Source: Colwellia sp. D2M02
GTDB lineage: Bacteria; Pseudomonadota; Gammaproteobacteria; Enterobacterales; Alteromonadaceae
Direction of reading: 5' to 3'
Assembly (NCBI RefSeq): GCF_018860755.1
Contig: NZ_JAHKPW010000011.1
Span: 2,823-66,822, forward strand
DNA length: 64,000 nucleotides
Positions within the stretch are counted from its first letter, which is position 1. Each line of letters starts with the position of its first letter. Position numbers and translations under genes: made by a program. The notes under the pieces were generated by a model. That model saw only the letters and a list, made by a program, of their open reading frames with translations, made no database searches and was not told where the DNA came from. Shown here piece by piece: positions 7,150 through 43,337 of the stretch.

Positions 7150-8757
7150 CTAGTAAGCTGTAGCCTTTATGGCATTCGTTTGTTCGTCTTGTGTTTGAAT
7201 AGCAATTAACGGTGCTTTCGCTAAAAATAATTTAGTAGCAATTAACCAACAGCACAAAGCTAAACTTAATAGCATTACTTCAACCACAAGTACACTGTAG
7301 TAACCTAGCTCAATCATAGTCGTAATGCCTTGCGCGACAAATAACCAATCTAATATTGGGGTTGTAGCAAGCAATATCGCGGTGATTTTAAGAAAAATTG
7401 CTGCGAACCTTTTTTGTGTCGCTAACCCAGAAGATAATAAAAGCGAAAGGGCAATAGCGCTAAATAAACACAAAAAGAATATATAGCTGATGATATCGCT
7501 ACGCCCTACATAATCAATAGCAATAACACGCGCACAAATAAAGCCAACAGCGGTCGCAAAAATAGTACCGATAAAGCCACCCGTTGTCATTGCATACACT
7601 AAACGCAAGCCTAATGGGTTTTGCTTTTCTTTACGTAGACTGGTTTTCTTTTGCAGCCACATTAGGTTGCCCGTTAAAATAATATAACAAGTACCAATAC
7701 CTAATATAAAGAACAACACTCTTAAAGCATAACCGGCAAAGTTACCAAAATGTAAGCTGGTTATAACCTCTAAACCACCGCGCAAGTCATTATCGTAATT
7801 ATCTGTTGTTAAATATAATTCACGCCCAGAAGCAATATGATAAGTCACCTCTTTTTTCGTGGAGAATTGGCTTTCATCCATACCTCTAAAGGTTACTGAA
7901 GCACTTTCATCACCAAAATGATCAATAGAAACTCTTGCTAATGTTACTTCACCTAAACTTTCTTTAGCTTTAACCAGTAAATTATCTAAACCAACAACAG
8001 GAACTTGCACGTTAGTTTCATCTAAGTGCACATCAACAATACCTGCCGCCTCAAATAATTTACCTTGATCGCCACCATAAAGTACTACCGCATAAGAAAT
8101 CTGATAAATAATCAATAAGTTAAATACCAAACCTGAAAATGCATACATAAGATGAAAAGGAAGCCCCATCACACCAATTAAATTGTGCGCATCAAGTAGT
8201 TTATCTTTCTTACCCTCGTGACGATATTGAAAGAATTTATTAATAATTTTACGCCAATGAATGACCACGCCACTTAGTAAAGCCACAAAGAAAAATAAGG
8301 TCACAATACCAACAAAATACAAACCCACCGTTGGAATATGAAGGTCATAATGCAGAGTGTATAAAAAGTTAGCCCAATTGAACCCTGCGCCATCGCCCAG
8401 CACTTTGCCGTCAGAAGACAATAGCAAATGTTTATCTAGGTGTTTCTCTTCTGGCAACTCTTCTTCAAAGTAGAGATTAGCGATAGGCTGCTCTTTTGTC
8501 GGCATTGATAAAATAAAATAGCCATGAGTATGAATCTTGTAGTTTTCACTCACCTTAGCAACGGTTTTATCTAACGGAAATTCATTTTGATAAGAGCCTG
8601 TTGTGAAATGTGGATTTTTCTCCCAAGCACCAATATCTTGCAGAAATAAACTTAATGACCCAGCAAAAAACACGATAAATAACACCGTTGAGATGATCAA
8701 CCCAACCCAAGCGTGCGCATTGGTTAATGCTTTTAAAGATTCCTTATTCATTTCCAT
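7150..8757 (-). CDS. PepSY-associated TM protein, iron-uptake reductase type
   Basis: Inner membrane protein of 535 aa of the PepSY_TM family, whose members sit with siderophore receptors and are thought to reduce ferric siderophores. Helices are seen near 15-37, 140-170, 190-220 and 340-370, with four more in the C-terminal third. Two large periplasmic loops carry the PepSY-like regions. Conserved-looking histidines lie in HAWVG, HYDLHIP, HNLIGVMGLPFHL and HFGNF, suitable for haem ligation within the membrane. It is the third gene of a minus-strand operon, its start overlapping the previous stop in a TAATG. A second Met two codons in (MNKES) is an equally good start. Fur control is expected from the operon's promoter. 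Confidence 0.85.
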   Translation of the reverse strand: MEMNKESLKALTNAHAWVGLIISTVLFIVFFAGSLSLFLQDIGAWEKNPHFTTGSYQNEFPLDKTVAKVSENYKIHTHGYFILSMPTKEQPIANLYFEEELPEEKHLDKHLLLSSDGKVLGDGAGFNWANFLYTLHYDLHIPTVGLYFVGIVTLFFFVALLSGVVIHWRKIINKFFQYRHEGKKDKLLDAHNLIGVMGLPFHLMYAFSGLVFNLLIIYQISYAVVLYGGDQGKLFEAAGIVDVHLDETNVQVPVVGLDNLLVKAKESLGEVTLARVSIDHFGDESASVTFRGMDESQFSTKKEVTYHIASGRELYLTTDNYDNDLRGGLEVITSLHFGNFAGYALRVLFFILGIGTCYIILTGNLMWLQKKTSLRKEKQNPLGLRLVYAMTTGGFIGTIFATAVGFICARVIAIDYVGRSDIISYIFFLCLFSAIALSLLLSSGLATQKRFAAIFLKITAILLATTPILDWLFVAQGITTMIELGYYSVLVVEVMLLSLALCCWLIATKLFLAKAPLIAIQTQDEQTNAIKATAY

Positions 8758-10335: not shown

Positions 10336-10418
10336 TGTTATTTCCTCTGTAAGTTATTAGGTCTTTATCAGCACAAATTCAGTATATGACTTATTTTTTC
10401 ATAATTTCACAATAAGAA

Positions 10419-10439
10419 TTACACAGTGTAAATTTTACA
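10419..10439. promoter_or_regulatory. Overlapping palindromes, candidate operator in a divergent promoter
   Basis: TTACACAGTGTAA (10419-10431) is a perfect palindrome around a central base, and TGTAAATTTTACA (10427-10439) overlaps it. They sit in the 156 bases between the malate-synthase-like gene and the divergent XRE regulator, 53 bases before the latter's ATG, and are a natural candidate for autoregulation. Confidence 0.4.
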
Positions 10440-10491
10440 AAACATGCTATGGTGGTTATATAGACAACATTCATGAATAAGCAGAATTTCT

Positions 10492-11982
10492 ATGAAAAAA
10501 GACGCAAGTTTGCTACGAAAATCACACTTTCTTGGTACTAAAATACGTAATTTAAGAAAGCGTAATAACTTAACATTAGAAGATTTATCGGCCCGATGTA
10601 TTCGAATTGATGCTTATTCTGCGCCTTCAGTCTCTTATTTATCTATGATTGAGCGCGGCAAACGTACACCAAGCCAAGAAATGCTGGAAAACTTAGCGGA
10701 AGTATTTCAAAAGCCCGTAGAATGGTTTTTAGATAGTGAGCCTGAGCCATCAAATATCACGCCAACCAAAGGTAACCATGGCGGCATTGTTGGTATGGCG
10801 TTAGAGCCTAACTTTCTTTATTCAAACGACATTTTGCAAATAGCTATTCCTGAAATGTTATCGCAAACAGGCATTAGCGGTCGCCAATTTGCGCATTTGT
10901 TAATTCGTGCACATCAAGAACACCATCAAAATCATTTCCCTGATCTTGAACGGGCTGCTGAAGAAGTGGGTGGTAAAAACCTTTATCTAACTTCGAGTGA
11001 CTTAATCAGTATTGCTAACGAGCAAGGGCTTAATATTCAATGGTTTGATGAAAAGTGCCAGCAACAGTTAGATGAAACTGGGGCGGTTAATCAACAATTA
11101 GTAACCTCTTACTTTCAAGCCCCTAACCACGTCTTTTTAAATACCTTATTAAAGCAACGTGAAAGCCGTTTGAAGTATGATTTAGCTGTGCATATTGGCC
11201 ATGCGGTATTACATAACCTTGACGGGTTACAATGCACACTAACCATAGGCGGTAATACTGAGCAATCAACGGATTTTAGTACGCCTAATGCACAAGACAT
11301 TCTAAAAGCATGGCATGACTTTGAATCGAGTTTTTTTGCTGGAGCACTGCTTTGCCCAAAAGCACCATTTAGACAATTATTAGACAGCCATGGCTATGAA
11401 GCGAGTATTCACCAACAACTTAACATTTCAGCCTCGGTCGCTATGCGCCGCATGACAGTTGTTTCTCCCTACCCCCATTGGCATTATTTTGATGCTTATC
11501 AACCTGGAAAGTTAAAAGCCGTTTACCGAGGTAACGGTATTCCCTTACCTTGGGGGAATATGCGTACGGTAGAAGATCCTTGTCAACATTGGGCGGTATT
11601 TAGAAAATTTACCGATATATCCTCTGACACCAGTGTGCAGCTATCTATTATGATTGTCGAAGGGTTACCGCGCCTTTATTGTTGCGAGTCGATTCAAGTG
11701 GATGATTTAGCAGGAAACTCTCACGTATTATGTGCTGGCATTGATTTAAATCCAGCTATCAGCGCTCAAGGGGGTGATGCTCACGCTATCGTCGCGCAAT
11801 TACAAGATTTATGCATTCAGCACGGCGGGGAAAGCACTATCCCTCACCATATAAAGAAGCAATTACTAAGCGTTGCACGTATTTTAAATATTCATTGGCT
11901 TGAGCGAGGGCTAGAAAAAACAGTGCGGGTAATTTGCACACGTGGTAATTCATGCCCACGAAATCCAAGCTGCTACCCATAA
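10492..11982 (+). CDS. XRE-family regulator of the ScfR/RamB type
   Basis: DNA-binding regulator of 496 aa. The N-terminal 80 residues are an XRE helix-turn-helix (GTKIRNLRKRNNLTLEDLSA...PSVSYLSMIERGKRTPS). The middle is IrrE/DUF955-like without a clear zinc motif. The C-terminus ends in a cysteine set, CTRGNSCPRNPSC, reminiscent of the Cys/Arg tail of ScfR, RamB and PrpC-locus regulators. Those control short-chain acyl-CoA, glyoxylate and methylcitrate genes. A DUF3612 label is another possibility for this architecture in Vibrio and Shewanella relatives. The divergent neighbour derived from malate synthase G fits a glyoxylate-linked role, but that is inference. The start has only a weak ribosome site. 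Confidence 0.78.
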   Translation: MKKDASLLRKSHFLGTKIRNLRKRNNLTLEDLSARCIRIDAYSAPSVSYLSMIERGKRTPSQEMLENLAEVFQKPVEWFLDSEPEPSNITPTKGNHGGIVGMALEPNFLYSNDILQIAIPEMLSQTGISGRQFAHLLIRAHQEHHQNHFPDLERAAEEVGGKNLYLTSSDLISIANEQGLNIQWFDEKCQQQLDETGAVNQQLVTSYFQAPNHVFLNTLLKQRESRLKYDLAVHIGHAVLHNLDGLQCTLTIGGNTEQSTDFSTPNAQDILKAWHDFESSFFAGALLCPKAPFRQLLDSHGYEASIHQQLNISASVAMRRMTVVSPYPHWHYFDAYQPGKLKAVYRGNGIPLPWGNMRTVEDPCQHWAVFRKFTDISSDTSVQLSIMIVEGLPRLYCCESIQVDDLAGNSHVLCAGIDLNPAISAQGGDAHAIVAQLQDLCIQHGGESTIPHHIKKQLLSVARILNIHWLERGLEKTVRVICTRGNSCPRNPSCYP

Positions 11983-38445: not shown

Positions 38446-39253
38446 TCGTTTACTAACACTCTGTTTTATTATGCTAAGCAACATTATCAGCCCTGCTGTT
38501 TACGCGAATAGTAAAGTTGAATTAGGCATTGGTGCTTTTTCACTACATACTGCCGATTATCCTGGCTCTAATGAATATCAAACCTATGTAGTGCCACTAC
38601 CTTATTTTCATTATGAAAGTGAAAAGCTCTCTATCGACCGAGAAGGTTTAACGGGCTGGTTATGGCAAGATAACGGTTGGTATTTAGATATTTCAATGTC
38701 GGCAGGCATTCCTGTGAATAGTGACGATAATAAAACCCGTCGAAATATGCCAGATATTGACTGGTCATTTGAATTAGGACCATCCATTAAGCATTACTGG
38801 CAAGGAAAACCTAACAGTGATGATTATTTATTAGCGGAGCTATACACCCGTAAAGTTATCGCAACCGACTTCAGAGGTTTTGATGATATTGGTTGGCGTA
38901 CTGGTTTACGCTTGGCACATCAAAAAACCTTTAGCTTTAATGATAACAGCACCCTTGAATGGGCTAACGCCCTTGATATTAATACCGCAAATGATGAGTT
39001 AGCGCATTACTTTTATGGCGTAGACAGTCAATATCAAACAGCTACTCGCAGTGCATATAATGCCAATGGCGGTTATGCCGGCACTAATGTATCAACCGGC
39101 TTAGTATGGAAACACAAAAAGCTATGGCTAGCTGCTTATATAAGTGCATACTCGTTGCACGGTAGTCAGCAAGAAAATAGCCCTTTAGTCAATGACGTTA
39201 TTGGCTACTCTGCAGGGGTAGGCATTGTTTGGATACTTTACCAAAAGGGATAA
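38438..39253 (+). CDS. MipA/OmpV family outer membrane protein
   Basis: A 271 aa outer membrane protein: signal peptide to about residue 23 (VYA-NS), then the family start VELGIGAFSLHTADYPGSNEYQTYVVPLPYF and beta strands such as LSIDREGLTGWLW and ending GYSAGVGIVWILY. MipA/OmpV proteins are barrels of poorly known role. Overlap with apeR by 8 bases places it in the pigment operon, perhaps as part of its outer membrane insertion. Confidence 0.85.
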   Translation: MNNRLLTLCFIMLSNIISPAVYANSKVELGIGAFSLHTADYPGSNEYQTYVVPLPYFHYESEKLSIDREGLTGWLWQDNGWYLDISMSAGIPVNSDDNKTRRNMPDIDWSFELGPSIKHYWQGKPNSDDYLLAELYTRKVIATDFRGFDDIGWRTGLRLAHQKTFSFNDNSTLEWANALDINTANDELAHYFYGVDSQYQTATRSAYNANGGYAGTNVSTGLVWKHKKLWLAAYISAYSLHGSQQENSPLVNDVIGYSAGVGIVWILYQKG

Positions 39254-39337: not shown

Positions 39338-39898
39338 ATGGACACTTCTGCACTACTCATCAATGTAATGCTTTACCTATTTTTACCCTTATGGGGTATT
39401 GCAGGCTTTGCTGACTGGTGTTGCCACAGAGCCACCAAAATTGAAGTAACCTCAGGCATTAAAGAGTCGTTAATGCATTCGTTAATGGGCATACAAATGG
39501 GTATTCCCATCATTCTCTGCTTATTGTATGACGTAAATGTATTAATTTTACTTATTTGTATTATTACTTGGATTTCACACGAAATCGTCGCTCATTGCGA
39601 TGTGCGCTACGCCGCCCCTCAACGTGAAATATCTATCTGGGAAATGCACGCCCACACCTACCTTGGTTCATTACCACTGTACATGTTAATTTCAATTATT
39701 GTTATTAATTGGGCTGAATTTCAACAGCTTATTACTTTTAATTGGGCTGGCAATATGTCACTAACCTTAGTTAGTGAGCCGCACGGTACTTCATCTTACT
39801 TACCCGCCTACTTAACATTTATGGCGTTACTTTGTGTTTTTCCCTACGTTGAAGAAAATTTGCGCTGTTTAAAAGCGCACTTTAAAGAAGGAATTTAA
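39338..39898 (+). CDS. His-rich integral membrane protein, unknown
   Basis: A 186 aa membrane protein with about four helices. I do not recognise the family. Charged and metal-ligand-like residues lie on the cytoplasmic side: Asp26 and His30 (DWCCHR), His47 (LMHSLMG), His81-Glu82-His86 (SHEIVAH) and His104/His106 (EMHAHTYLG). The pattern recalls membrane diiron hydroxylases and desaturases but lacks their exact boxes. It starts 84 bases after the previous gene and ends one base before the DarB-like gene, so it belongs to the 3' module. It may be a membrane oxidase acting on the lipid product. Confidence 0.7.
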   Translation: MDTSALLINVMLYLFLPLWGIAGFADWCCHRATKIEVTSGIKESLMHSLMGIQMGIPIILCLLYDVNVLILLICIITWISHEIVAHCDVRYAAPQREISIWEMHAHTYLGSLPLYMLISIIVINWAEFQQLITFNWAGNMSLTLVSEPHGTSSYLPAYLTFMALLCVFPYVEENLRCLKAHFKEGI

Positions 39899-41008
39899 GT
39901 GCAGGTTTATATAAATAGTACTGGCCGTTACTTACCCGGCAAAGCCGTTAATAATGAAGAGATTGAATCGGTATTAGGTTTAATTCACGGTAAGAAAAGT
40001 CGCTTAAAGCGAAAAATTTTAAACTCTAATGGCATTTTACAGCGTCATTACGCCATTAATGATCAACAGCAAACCACAATTTCAAATAGTGATATGGCCG
40101 CCAATGCGGGTATGAATTGTATTGACGAAAGCTACTTGGCTCCAGCCAAAATACAAATGTTAAGTTGTGCAACCAGTCAAGGAGATATGGTTTTACCTGG
40201 CTTTGGTAGCATGGTACAAGCCGCATTAAACCTTTCTGAAGTAGAGTTACACACAAGCCACGGCATATGTTCTAGCAGCATGATGGCACTTAAAACCGCC
40301 TTTAATAATATAAGGTGTCAAGATAGCGATAACGCCTTAGTCATTGCTAGTGAACTTACCTCACGATTATTCAAACACAGCCGTTATGAACAAGTTACCG
40401 ATCAAGCTGTAGATTTTAATGCTGAATTTCTACGGTGGATGCTATCAGACGGCGCAGGGGCATTATTACTAGAAAATCAGCCTCGACCAACTGGCCGTAG
40501 CCTTCGTATTGATTGGATTAAAAGTTTTTCACACGCCAATGTTTTTCCTGTTTGTATGTCGGTGGGACAATCTAAAGATGAAGAGCAAAAAACATGGCAA
40601 GACTACTCAAGCTATGGCGAAGCAGAACAAGCTGGCGCACTTTTATTACGCCAAGATGTTAGGTTACTCGACAATATTGTTGCTGTTGGCGTACAAGGTT
40701 TTTTAAAGTTAATTGCACAAGGTCACGTTGACCCTCATAAAATTGACCATGTGTTATGTCACTTTTCATCAAAATATTTCAAAAATAAAATTTTTGAAAT
40801 GCTAGAAGTTTCAGGGGCGAGTATTGCTGAAGAAAAATGGTATACCAACCTTTATCAACGTGGAAATACCGGCTGTGCATCAATTTTTATTATGTTAGAT
40901 GAGTTCATTAAAACTCATGAGCTAAAAGCTGGCGAAACACTTTTTTGCATGGTTCCCGAAAGTGGTCGTTTTAACTGTGCGTACATGCACTTAACTGTTG
41001 TAGGGTAA
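39899..41008 (+). CDS. StlD/DarB-like ketosynthase
   Basis: A 369 aa thiolase-fold condensing enzyme of the KAS III type. The start (VYINSTGRYLPGKAVNNEEI, then GLIHGKKSRLKRKIL and GILQRHYAI) matches the pattern of StlD/DarB ketosynthases that form dialkylresorcinol or stilbene precursors. Catalytic Cys124 (GICSSS), His288 (LCHFSS) and Asn323 (RGNTGC) are all there. DarB genes are known to sit beside APE clusters, usually with darA and darC, which are missing here. It starts at GTG right after the previous stop. A head-to-head condensation of two acyl chains is the natural inference. Confidence 0.82.
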   Translation: MQVYINSTGRYLPGKAVNNEEIESVLGLIHGKKSRLKRKILNSNGILQRHYAINDQQQTTISNSDMAANAGMNCIDESYLAPAKIQMLSCATSQGDMVLPGFGSMVQAALNLSEVELHTSHGICSSSMMALKTAFNNIRCQDSDNALVIASELTSRLFKHSRYEQVTDQAVDFNAEFLRWMLSDGAGALLLENQPRPTGRSLRIDWIKSFSHANVFPVCMSVGQSKDEEQKTWQDYSSYGEAEQAGALLLRQDVRLLDNIVAVGVQGFLKLIAQGHVDPHKIDHVLCHFSSKYFKNKIFEMLEVSGASIAEEKWYTNLYQRGNTGCASIFIMLDEFIKTHELKAGETLFCMVPESGRFNCAYMHLTVVG

Positions 41009-41014
41009 TAAATA

Positions 41015-41698
41015 ATGGATAATATAGTCTTAACCAAGCTAGGACAAAGTTGCTTACAATCACTGCTAAAAGTCTGGTTCGATTTTGATCTAGCCATCAC
41101 GCAAGTACCTATTATAAAACGCTTAGAGCAAGGGCGATTAAGTATTGAAGATTATCAAAGCTTATTACTTAATTTACGCCAACAAGTCATTGAAGGCTCA
41201 CGCTGGATCAGCCGTTGTGCCTCAAGCTTTGATCGCGAATATGCTGATGTCAGGTCAACCGTCATTAGCCACGCCACAGAAGAGCATCGTGATTACCTAA
41301 TACTTGAAAACGATTATGTAGCAACAGGTGGAACCTTAACCGACATTCAAGCAGCCAGTAAAAATATAGGCTCGGAGGCACTACATGGCTTTTTAATGTA
41401 CCGAGCAAGCCAACCCAACCCCGTTGATTTAATTGGTGCAATGTGGATTATTGAAGGTCTAGGTAACAAAATGGCCAGCAAATGGTCACAACGTATTAAT
41501 GAGCAATTTTCATTTGAAAATACTATTACTGCCTTTATGGATTACCACGGTGAAAACGATGAAAATCACTTACAAGCGCTTTACCGTCTGATTGATCGCG
41601 TAGCAACATCGCCTGAGCGGGTTAACGACATAATACGCACCGCAAAAGTCGTCGCTAAATTGTATCAACTGCAATTAGAGGAGGTTGATAATGGCTAA
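41015..41698 (+). CDS. Heme-oxygenase-fold iron-containing redox enzyme
   Basis: A 227 aa all-helical protein of the HDO/TenA-like superfamily. Candidate diiron ligands are in HATEEH (His86, Glu89/90, His91), Glu147 (IIEGLG) and the HX3DX2H set His178-Asp182-His185. The last set is the spacing seen in CADD-type diiron oxidases. Such enzymes oxidise, desaturate or cleave acyl or amino substrates using oxygen. It lies between the DarB-like gene and the unknown gene, 6 bases after the former and overlapping the latter by 8. An oxidative aromatisation of the DarB product would replace the missing DarA/DarC, but this is a guess. Confidence 0.8.
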   Translation: MDNIVLTKLGQSCLQSLLKVWFDFDLAITQVPIIKRLEQGRLSIEDYQSLLLNLRQQVIEGSRWISRCASSFDREYADVRSTVISHATEEHRDYLILENDYVATGGTLTDIQAASKNIGSEALHGFLMYRASQPNPVDLIGAMWIIEGLGNKMASKWSQRINEQFSFENTITAFMDYHGENDENHLQALYRLIDRVATSPERVNDIIRTAKVVAKLYQLQLEEVDNG

Positions 41699-42545
41699 AA
41701 AAGTCAGTCCTTATTTACAGGCCATTAGCAATGATGACTCTCTGCCGATAGAAGAGGTTGCCACGCAATTATGGATGACAGATCTCAATAACAGCTTTCG
41801 CTGGGTATTAAGACCATTATTACAGCTTTTTTTTGCAATACTGCTGCATATTGTATGGTTTATTAAACGGTTACCTTTCCCTCAATTTAGCGCCCATCAC
41901 TTTTTACAAAAAACTATTTGCTGGTTTTGTCGTTATTTTGTTTCACCTGAAGCCAACCTTTTAATTCTTAGGCACTTTGCTACTGAATCGAATATTTTAA
42001 ACTTTTTATCGGAAAATACAGGGCACGAACATCGCGTTAATCTTTACCCAAAAACCATTAACGATATGCTCAATAGTACCTTTGTTGATCACGACCAAGA
42101 GCTATTCGACTGTTTTATCAAGCTAGGAAAAAGTCAGGCACCAATTTCAAACAACGACATTTTACCGAGATGTACTTGGGACAGCTGGCAGCCAATTAAT
42201 ATGGACGACTTTCATATCAAAAGAAGATCAACGCAAATACTCGACTTTGAAACGTCGCATGCTTTATTTATGTGCTTATTTTGTTTTTTACTGAAAAAAG
42301 ATGAGTATCGCGATGCAATTAATGGCTTTAATTTAGATCAATCTATCGCGATCAGAGTCGGTCGCATCATTAATGAGCCTAACTTAACTGAGTTAGCCTA
42401 TAACAAATATCCTCAGTATTTGCTTGGCCCTTGGAACTTAGGGCAGCGCTTTTTAATGCATGGCTTTTTTACCGAACACTTATACGCAAGGTTAGAAACA
42501 ATAAGACTGATACAACTTGAAAAGAGTAGCCCCGACTCGGCTTAA
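41691..42545 (+). CDS. Unknown protein ending the pigment cluster
   Basis: A 284 aa protein I do not recognise. A hydrophobic helix near residues 40-60 could anchor it to the membrane; the rest looks helical and soluble, with ICWFCRYFVSPEANLLILRHF and CTWDSWQPINMDDFHIKRRS as distinctive stretches. The ATG at 41691 has an excellent GGAGG eight bases upstream and overlaps the preceding diiron gene, so it is part of the same module and its product probably acts with those enzymes. Confidence 0.7.
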   Translation: MAKKVSPYLQAISNDDSLPIEEVATQLWMTDLNNSFRWVLRPLLQLFFAILLHIVWFIKRLPFPQFSAHHFLQKTICWFCRYFVSPEANLLILRHFATESNILNFLSENTGHEHRVNLYPKTINDMLNSTFVDHDQELFDCFIKLGKSQAPISNNDILPRCTWDSWQPINMDDFHIKRRSTQILDFETSHALFMCLFCFLLKKDEYRDAINGFNLDQSIAIRVGRIINEPNLTELAYNKYPQYLLGPWNLGQRFLMHGFFTEHLYARLETIRLIQLEKSSPDSA

Positions 42546-42569: not shown

Positions 42570-43337
42570 ATGCGTAGCCTATCAGATATTGAAAAACTAT
42601 TTTTGCGTACTCGATTAAGAAGATTTCGTATTAATTTCTTTTTTACCAAGCTCTTATATGCAGGGCTTTGTCTATCTATCGTTTTATGCTTATATGGATA
42701 TATAAGCGCTGGCGGTAATTGGATGCCAGGGATACTCCAATATGTTTTAGCGATAGTTGGCAGTGGTTTTGCGTTTTATTGGGCAATAAGGGTTGGAACA
42801 CTGCGCCTTTTCTCTCCTATATACCCTACTTTATCAACTATTACGGGGAGGCTATTCGTAGAGCGCCCTAATAAAGGCCTACTGAGCCAGTTAGAGTTAT
42901 CAAACAATTTTGTTCTACCAAATGGTAAACGATATATCGTCGTATTGCCTTATTTTTGGGAAAGAGCTGTTCATACAGGAAAAGAATATACACTAGAAGT
43001 CTCAGGAATAAATGGAGAATATGGCACCCTTAATAACTCCCCTATTATTCTCATCACATCAATGATCTTTAATGGCAAAGAGAGAGTGTTGAGTAAATAT
43101 GCTTTTGAAGACGCGAGAAAAGCCGTTCACCATCCAACATATGCAGTAGCCATCTTATGTTTGTCACCTATGTTACTACTCTTCACAATAATGTTATTTC
43201 ATTCGTTAGAAGCGTTCAGCCTAATAGGAACATTACTCATATCAACCTTAATTAGCATATGTATTTGGCTTTATATTGAGGACAGTAAGCGCTGGCAACG
43301 CATTAGAAAGAAAATGCTAGAACTATCAAAGATCTAA
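42570..43337 (+). CDS. Unknown membrane protein
   Basis: A 255 aa protein of unknown family. Two helices lie near residues 25-80 and two more near 195-240, with a soluble domain between them rich in beta strands (LSQLELSNNFVLPNGKRYIVVLPYFWERAVHTGKEYTLEV). It starts 24 bases after the pigment module, has GGGATG upstream, and its codon use looks slightly different from the cluster (more ATA and AGA). It may be unrelated to the pigment and is followed by the lexA promoter. Confidence 0.65.
   Translation: MRSLSDIEKLFLRTRLRRFRINFFFTKLLYAGLCLSIVLCLYGYISAGGNWMPGILQYVLAIVGSGFAFYWAIRVGTLRLFSPIYPTLSTITGRLFVERPNKGLLSQLELSNNFVLPNGKRYIVVLPYFWERAVHTGKEYTLEVSGINGEYGTLNNSPIILITSMIFNGKERVLSKYAFEDARKAVHHPTYAVAILCLSPMLLLFTIMLFHSLEAFSLIGTLLISTLISICIWLYIEDSKRWQRIRKKMLELSKI

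Follow-up and report, generated by a model that had tools for sequence, protein, structure and literature searches.

A StlD/DarB-like ketosynthase paired with a haem-oxygenase-like oxidase in a recurrent bacterial gene module, described from Colwellia sp. D2M02

In the genome of Colwellia sp. D2M02, four consecutive genes lie downstream of an aryl polyene (APE) cluster, in a stretch of 64,000 nucleotides that is called the window here (contig NZ_JAHKPW010000011.1, positions 2,823 to 66,822), and they encode a histidine-rich membrane protein (MEM), a StlD/DarB-type ketosynthase (KS), a haem-oxygenase-like oxidase (HDO), and a protein of family DUF6999. This four-gene module is real, and because the same gene order is seen in two phyla and eight loci have KS and HDO fused, the set goes beyond what chance would bring together. 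The result is carried by the families and their intact motifs, the conserved order, the fusion, and the finding that APE and Dar genes are missing from the other loci. Our data suggest an autonomous lipid-biosynthesis module in which acyl chains would be condensed head to head and the product passed directly to an unusual dimetal oxidase, a reading to which we give slightly better than an even chance. What can best be defended is a conserved pathway, present in varied genomic settings, in which O2-dependent oxidation at an unusual HDO site would come after head-to-head acyl condensation. The first-pass annotation of this DNA had already paired a DarB-like ketosynthase with an O2-type dimetal oxidase in the absence of DarA, and this pairing is supported by the fusions, the constant adjacency, and the distribution of the Dar genes (0 of 25 module loci versus 8 of 8 loci of Dar type); its assignment of the four genes to the APE pathway did not hold up.

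Recurrence of the module

Our compilation comprises 25 loci at which KS and HDO are neighbours, mostly from Pseudomonadota and in one case from Bacteroidota (the window; L003–L006; L058; L030, L031, L033, L034, L036–L040, L092–L097, and L109–L112), among them L003, L004, and L006 from Halomonas/Billgrantia, L005 from a Cytophagales metagenome-assembled genome, and L058 from Pseudoalteromonas sp. THAF3. KS and HDO adjoin in all 25, and DUF6999 comes next in 24 of 24, the contig of L003 ending inside the HDO gene. MEM precedes KS in 13 loci (the window, L003, L004, L006, L033, L036–L040, L058, L109, and L110). In 8 of the 25 (L005, L030, L031, and L093–L097), KS and HDO form a single open reading frame (ORF) of about 620–660 aa, which is preceded by a fatty acid (FA) hydroxylase in L005, L030, L093, L094, L095, and L097 (PF04116 in L005 and L030); an FA desaturase likewise precedes the fusion in L030, L093, L094, L095, and L097 (PF00487 in L030), and two desaturase-like pieces are found in L096. 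Where these FA hydroxylase and desaturase genes lacked a Pfam name, they were assigned by similarity to the L005 and L030 proteins. L109 and L110 have KS and HDO as separate ORFs, with the HDO beginning immediately behind the stop codon of KS and in the same frame, an arrangement that may show how the fused form arises. At L039 (genome G009, 10418–11931), the HDO and DUF6999 genes each fall into two frames, through either decay or an assembly error, whereas KS and MEM are intact.

In the class sample, DUF6999 was found in 7 of 369 genomes, five of which have an intact KS and HDO beside it (G000, G079, G137, G284, and G361). G112 holds a decayed remnant of the module, a C-terminal KS fragment followed by a broken DUF6999 gene (L035, 1437–2358), and G134 holds a DUF6999 gene with no adjoining KS, next to a transposase-like ORF (L032, 6889–7947), and gave no HDO match genome-wide. 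A strong module-type HDO occurs in 9 of 398 genomes of the phylum sample (E 2e-77 or better; next match 3e-28) and in 7 of 394 genomes of the order sample, and all nine and all seven, two genomes being common to both, have KS and DUF6999 adjoining it; some HDO match at 1e-10 was found in 88 of the 398 phylum-sample genomes, mostly to other HDO families. Among 14 named control genomes, Caulobacter vibrioides gave a DUF6999 match (presence only), and a DUF6999 search of plasmids returned one record, that of Pseudoalteromonas sp. THAF3.

The proteins of the module

The window KS matches the NCBIfam StlD/DarB model NF005293 with 395 bits (E 4e-118) and the FabH/KAS III models with only 82 and 105 bits, and thus does not score as an ordinary FabH, a possibility that the first-pass annotation had raised. 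Its closest solved structure by sequence is StlD 5gk0 (E 1e-75). The triad Cys124-His288-Asn323, rightly described as intact before, is present in all 25 module KS, and the C-terminal PESGRF motif is largely retained (PE in 25/25; SG in 23/23 aligned sequences; R in 22/23, with Q in one). Residue 287 is Cys in 21 of the 25, Pro in three, and Ala in one; it is Pro in all eight Dar-type rows. Elsewhere in the same genome (L002, contig C64, 137–2079), a KASIII-type protein adjoins an alpha/beta hydrolase, a pair that we take to resemble OleA-OleB of hydrocarbon synthesis.

The HDO scores 34.6 bits against PF14518 (Haem_oxygenas_2; cut-off 28.9), which bears out the haem-oxygenase fold and the HX3DX2H motif (H178, D182, H185) reported at first. 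We aligned 20 module HDOs with 23 related HDOs, which form one close family and are hence not independent comparators: the module rows keep E90, E147, H178, D182, and H185, whereas position 93 is Asp in 20/20 module rows versus His in 23/23 related rows, position 86, one helix turn away, is His in 20/20 versus Tyr in 23/23, and position 60 is Glu in 19 and Asp in one versus His in 21, Gln in one, and Phe in one. Across all 25 loci, D93, H86, E90, and E147 are each found in 25/25, position 60 is acidic in 24/25 (Glu 23, Asp 1, Gln 1), and H178, D182, and H185 are present in all 24 loci where the piece reaches that far. In the solved protein 3dde, the columns of D93 and H86 are both occupied by His. 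HDO ligands follow the published pattern E-H-E-H-(D/E)-H, and about 85% of the HDO groups analysed carry E-H-X-H-D-H or E-H-X-H-E-H, according to the part of the source consulted (PMC11363339). The module HDOs lack the canonical second-ligand His on helix alpha1 of this E-H-E-H-(D/E)-H site and have Asp instead (25/25); from the alignment, E90, D93, E147, H178, D182, and H185 are the predicted metal ligands, and H86 may take over as one.

In its AlphaFold model (pLDDT 90.2, pTM 0.83), MEM has five long hydrophobic helices. D26, H30, R31, E43, H47, H81, D88, E102, H104, H106, and E173 are conserved in 11 of 11 aligned rows (10 of the 13 module MEMs and a relative, L098), and H86 in 10 of 11; these residues form a putative membrane metal site. 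The window MEM gave no Pfam match (E up to 1) and no NCBIfam match, the MEM of L006, L033, and L058 were likewise without a Pfam match, and Foldseek found no fold match to the model in the PDB. MEM was rejected as a short FA hydroxylase or desaturase, as the hhalign probabilities against the PF04116 and PF00487 proteins of sister modules were 0.1% and 0.5%; since no sequence relation was found, its equivalence to these enzymes is one of operon place only. The relative at L098 (G333, 7251–7757; 25% identity) sits next to an alcohol-dehydrogenase-like gene and retains D26, H30, H47, H81, D88, E102, H104, and H106, and because its genome is module-free, the role of the MEM family is wider than the module. 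MEM was found in 3 of 369 class-sample genomes, G333 being the one without a module. No shared element upstream of MEM was seen by eye in a 9-locus alignment.

The fourth protein, at first called unknown, now has a family, as it matches PF22523 (DUF6999) with 295 bits. Its model is all-helical and of fair to good confidence (pLDDT 85.7, pTM 0.86), and D17, H97, N111, H136, D137, D187, N213, D218, H259, and E264 are invariant in 19 rows. We rejected the idea that it is a distant HDO (hhalign probability 0.2%). The model gave no fold match in the PDB, and Foldseek against viral models also gave nothing; 23 of 39 Foldseek matches were HDO chains, mostly PolF, but because all had E above 1 and TM-scores of 0.10–0.15, this listing does not amount to a match.

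Aryl polyene genes, Dar genes, and the competing readings

A search with the APE proteins of the window turned up no APE gene in the flanks retrieved for the 22 other usable loci (about 2.6–9 kb a side; at L004, 6.4 kb on the downstream and 1 kb on the upstream side; L003 and L033 too short to tell). Only the window copy, 1 of 25, adjoins an APE cluster, and no recurrent APE linkage emerged; a single 30% match to a ketoreductase (KR) 6.5 kb from the module in L040 was taken as a generic dehydrogenase. DarA-like, DarG, and DarH genes are found at all eight loci with a Dar-type ketosynthase (L041–L048) versus none of the 25 module loci, so that the families are not constantly linked to darA, a possibility that had been considered earlier. 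No DarA-like, DarG, or DarH match was obtained in the window, where DarC, an acyl carrier protein (ACP), was not searched for specifically, and the rest of the Colwellia sp. D2M02 genome, the other place suggested for a darA gene, gave no DarA-like match. The label "DarA-like" comes from the place of the gene beside DarB, DarG, and DarH, as no family model named the query; in L041, DarG and DarH pass the NCBIfam cut-offs and DarB passes NF005293. A plasmid search with the DarA-like protein returned only 28% matches, annotated as "hypothetical protein". The eight Dar-type loci carry a fixed set of DarA-like, DarB, DarG, and DarH genes, which in L041 lies between homologues of the ketosynthase KSb and of KR/MipA, among APE genes.

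Within the same genus, the module HDO is present in 6 of 39 genomes (G000, G004, G009, G014, G016, and G021), and two more weak matches, at 22–23% identity, are other HDOs. The APE exporter is found in 15 of the 39 and a DarA-like gene in five (G009, G010, G021, G025, and G036), which are also the five with a second ketosynthase of 41–42% identity (37 of the 39 genomes searched). The module occurs together with the APE exporter in 3 of 6 genomes and with a DarA-like gene in 2 of 6, at separate places: in G021 the DarA-like set (L041) is among APE genes on another contig than the module, and in G009 (L042) the DarA-like gene has homologues of KR and MipA for neighbours and a broken exporter match at a distance of about 18 kb, and it is again on another contig than the module. 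Because these two genomes hold both systems separately, the module is not a plain replacement of DarA, as had been proposed. The three APE clusters most like that of the window (G028, G024, and G429) stop at the ketosynthase KSb without the module, in genomes without the module HDO. APE exporters of about 41% (three genomes) and about 28–34% identity (11 genomes) to that of the window are scattered among the 15 genomes; several APE cluster types in the genus are suggested.

From these observations we infer a pathway as follows, its substrates, product, order of steps, and metal included. The KS would draw on primary metabolism for two fatty acyl thioesters—genes for a ligase, an ACP, or a thioesterase are missing from the module—and would join them head to head, the product probably being a 2,5-dialkylcyclohexane-1,3-dione. 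The HDO, often fused to the KS, would receive this product directly and oxidise it with O2 at a dimetal site, most likely aromatising or oxygenating the ring, which is the step served by DarA in dialkylresorcinol (DAR) pathways. MEM, whose place is taken elsewhere by an FA hydroxylase, alone or together with an FA desaturase, or by nothing, may add a further oxidation, DUF6999 would be a near-obligate partner in the pathway, and the module probably moves between genomes. That this amounts to a widespread undescribed system, in which a KS is coupled to an HDO with an E-D-E-H-D-H site, yields a new class of oxidised ring lipids, and brings in DUF6999 and MEM as new enzyme families, is a broader proposition that we place a little short of an even chance.

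Several observations weigh against the proposed pathway. The three of 25 module KS that were scored are all below the NF005293 cut-off of 450 bits (window 395, L006 375, L034 414), and the DarB of L041 is above it with 579 bits. In a 29-row KS tree, the eight Dar-type ketosynthases form one clade (support 100/100), and all 20 module KS in the tree fall outside it; nor do they form one clade themselves, with L034 (93/90) and L005 with L092 (88/88) nearer to the Dar clade than the window group, although these lie on branches flagged by the program as long and no order of the module branches is claimed. Only the Dar clade is taken from this tree, because the OleA-like branch is very long and the tree was midpoint-rooted. 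Since the KS is below the StlD/DarB cut-off and outside the Dar clade, the product may not be a cyclohexanedione. With its altered ligand set, the HDO could bind a different metal or bind metal weakly. Of the genes searched for, L031, L034, L092, L111, and L112 have just KS, HDO, and DUF6999, and because of these five loci the membrane step is not general. That the divergences of KS, HDO, and DUF6999 correlate counts in favour of the pathway, but the Spearman coefficients of 0.59–0.67 over 23 loci (L039 and L003 were excluded here and are counted in the 25) are moderate and uncorrected for species relatedness. In the window, co-transcription of the module with the APE genes across an 84-nt gap is possible.

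This gap is also one of the arguments for the reading of the first-pass annotation, which makes the four genes an accessory arm of the APE cluster, supplying an oxidised resorcinol or dione that is esterified to the polyene. The module is on the same strand as the APE genes, the gap holds no terminator-like match, and a precedent exists in G021, where DarA-like, DarB, DarG, and DarH genes are placed among APE genes. However, the empty flanks of 22/22 other usable loci, the 3 of 6 module genomes of the genus that lack an APE exporter match, and the nearest APE clusters, which do without the module, all speak against such an arm. By the context of the compiled loci, the module was therefore rejected as part of the APE cluster, and we give this reading very little weight; the unit is the module itself, and the neighbouring APE cluster is best explained as incidental to it.

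It is unlikely, if somewhat less so, that the KS acts like OleA, turning two acyl chains into a beta-keto acid, and the HDO like UndA, converting this acid by oxidative decarboxylation into a ketone or an unsaturated hydrocarbon. The neighbouring FA hydroxylases and desaturases do fit lipid substrates, but the KS is StlD/DarB-like by its 395 bits, keeps the PE of PESGRF in 25/25 sequences, and is only 21% identical to the OleA-like protein of its own genome, so labelled on our assumption and by its alpha/beta hydrolase neighbour. UndA, an HDO, does decarboxylate a fatty acid, and the same source, in the part consulted, describes several HDOs that cleave C-C bonds and CADD, which modifies itself (PMC11363339). 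The latter reactions, together with the divergent ligand set, would fit an HDO that either breaks a C-C bond or makes a different head group, to be attached to the condensed lipid, with no aromatisation or oxygenation of the KS product. This we consider quite improbable, as the KS–HDO fusions favour direct transfer of the product, though they are compatible with a cleaving reaction on it.

Layout in the window and comparison with known systems

The coordinates of the module are given in Table 1. That the four genes are consecutive was confirmed, whereas the description "nearly all overlapping" was too strong: MEM and KS abut, a gap of 6 nt separates KS and HDO, and only HDO and DUF6999 overlap, by 14 nt. 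The true start of the DUF6999 gene is likely the in-frame ATG at 41691, which fits its relatives better and would reduce the overlap to 8 nt.

Table 1. Module genes and predicted HDO site segments, in positions of the window
Feature	Position	Strand	Details
MEM, His-rich membrane protein	39338–39898	+	186 aa ORF
KS, StlD/DarB-type ketosynthase	39899–41008	+	369 aa ORF, GTG start
HDO, haem-oxygenase-like oxidase	41015–41698	+	227 aa ORF, PF14518
HDO segment H86-x3-E90-x2-D93	41270–41293	+	Asp at the canonical alpha1 His column
HDO metal motif H178-x3-D182-x2-H185	41546–41569	+	predicted from alignment with HDOs
DUF6999 protein	41685–42545	+	286 aa ORF, listed TTG start

The APE block upstream comprises, by Pfam, an AMP-ligase, ApeI- and ApeP-like dehydratases, an aromatic amino acid lyase, ketosynthases, a KR, and others, and the MipA-like gene that precedes the module ends at 39253, 84 nt before it. 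This gap has no promoter-like match either, but directly ahead of the gap, within the end of the MipA-like gene (39205–39221), there is a weak terminator-like match; such matches number seven in 4.8 kb versus 3.6 expected by chance. The next gene downstream (42570–43337, 255 aa), between the module and lexA, has no accepted family, and because its protein has no match at the other 24 module loci, it is not counted as part of the module.

Descriptions of DarB-type ketosynthases place them with DarA, in the biosynthesis of pigments and signalling lipids. From a KS–HDO pairing that recurs in two phyla and takes the form of a single chain in about a third of the loci, new lipid chemistry can be predicted, and for the HDOs both the partner and the substrate would be of a new kind. 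The consistent His-to-Asp difference makes a statement on the dimetal sites of a fast-growing enzyme family that can be tested directly, and the module supplies a functional context for DUF6999. In the open literature that we searched, with subscription papers and preprints mostly outside it, no description of the combination was found, in line with the first-pass annotation, nor a ketosynthase partner for a characterised HDO or a mention of DUF6999. The passage seen of the paper on the ketosynthase PpyS does not name DarB (PMC4578411). The Acinetobacter HDO DtpC was rejected as the same system, as the available part of its description places it in a two-gene operon with katE.

The nearest relatives by KS are the DarA/DarB pathways of Azoarcus arcuflavin, the flexirubins, and the Photorhabdus asymbiotica DARs, which share the kind of KS, the triad, and the C-terminal motif. 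In the Azoarcus cluster, darA is the DAR-aromatase, darB the DAR-cyclase, and darC an acyl carrier protein, as stated in the portion of the source consulted (PMC3949708), which corrects the roles given to the three proteins in the first-pass annotation. The module differs in having HDO and DUF6999 in place of DarA-like, DarG, and DarH proteins (0/25), and its KS is outside the Dar clade and below the curated cut-off. Among solved structures, the closest to the KS by sequence is StlD (5gk0–5gk2) from the stilbene pathway of Photorhabdus, for which we know of no HDO partner. On the side of the oxidase, UndA, SznF, BesC, CADD, FlcD, and PolF share PF14518 and the two Glu and HX3DX2H ligand positions, from which the module HDOs depart by the Asp at the alpha1 His column and by the extra invariant His. 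CylC belongs to another enzyme family than the HDOs. The cyanobacterial clusters of bartoloside type resemble the module in that a dimetal oxidising enzyme, CylC, stands beside dialkylresorcinol synthesis, but in the part of the study that describes them, homologues of both DarA and DarB are present (PMC8406957), whereas the module pairs its DarB-like KS with an HDO and has no DarA-like gene at any of its loci.

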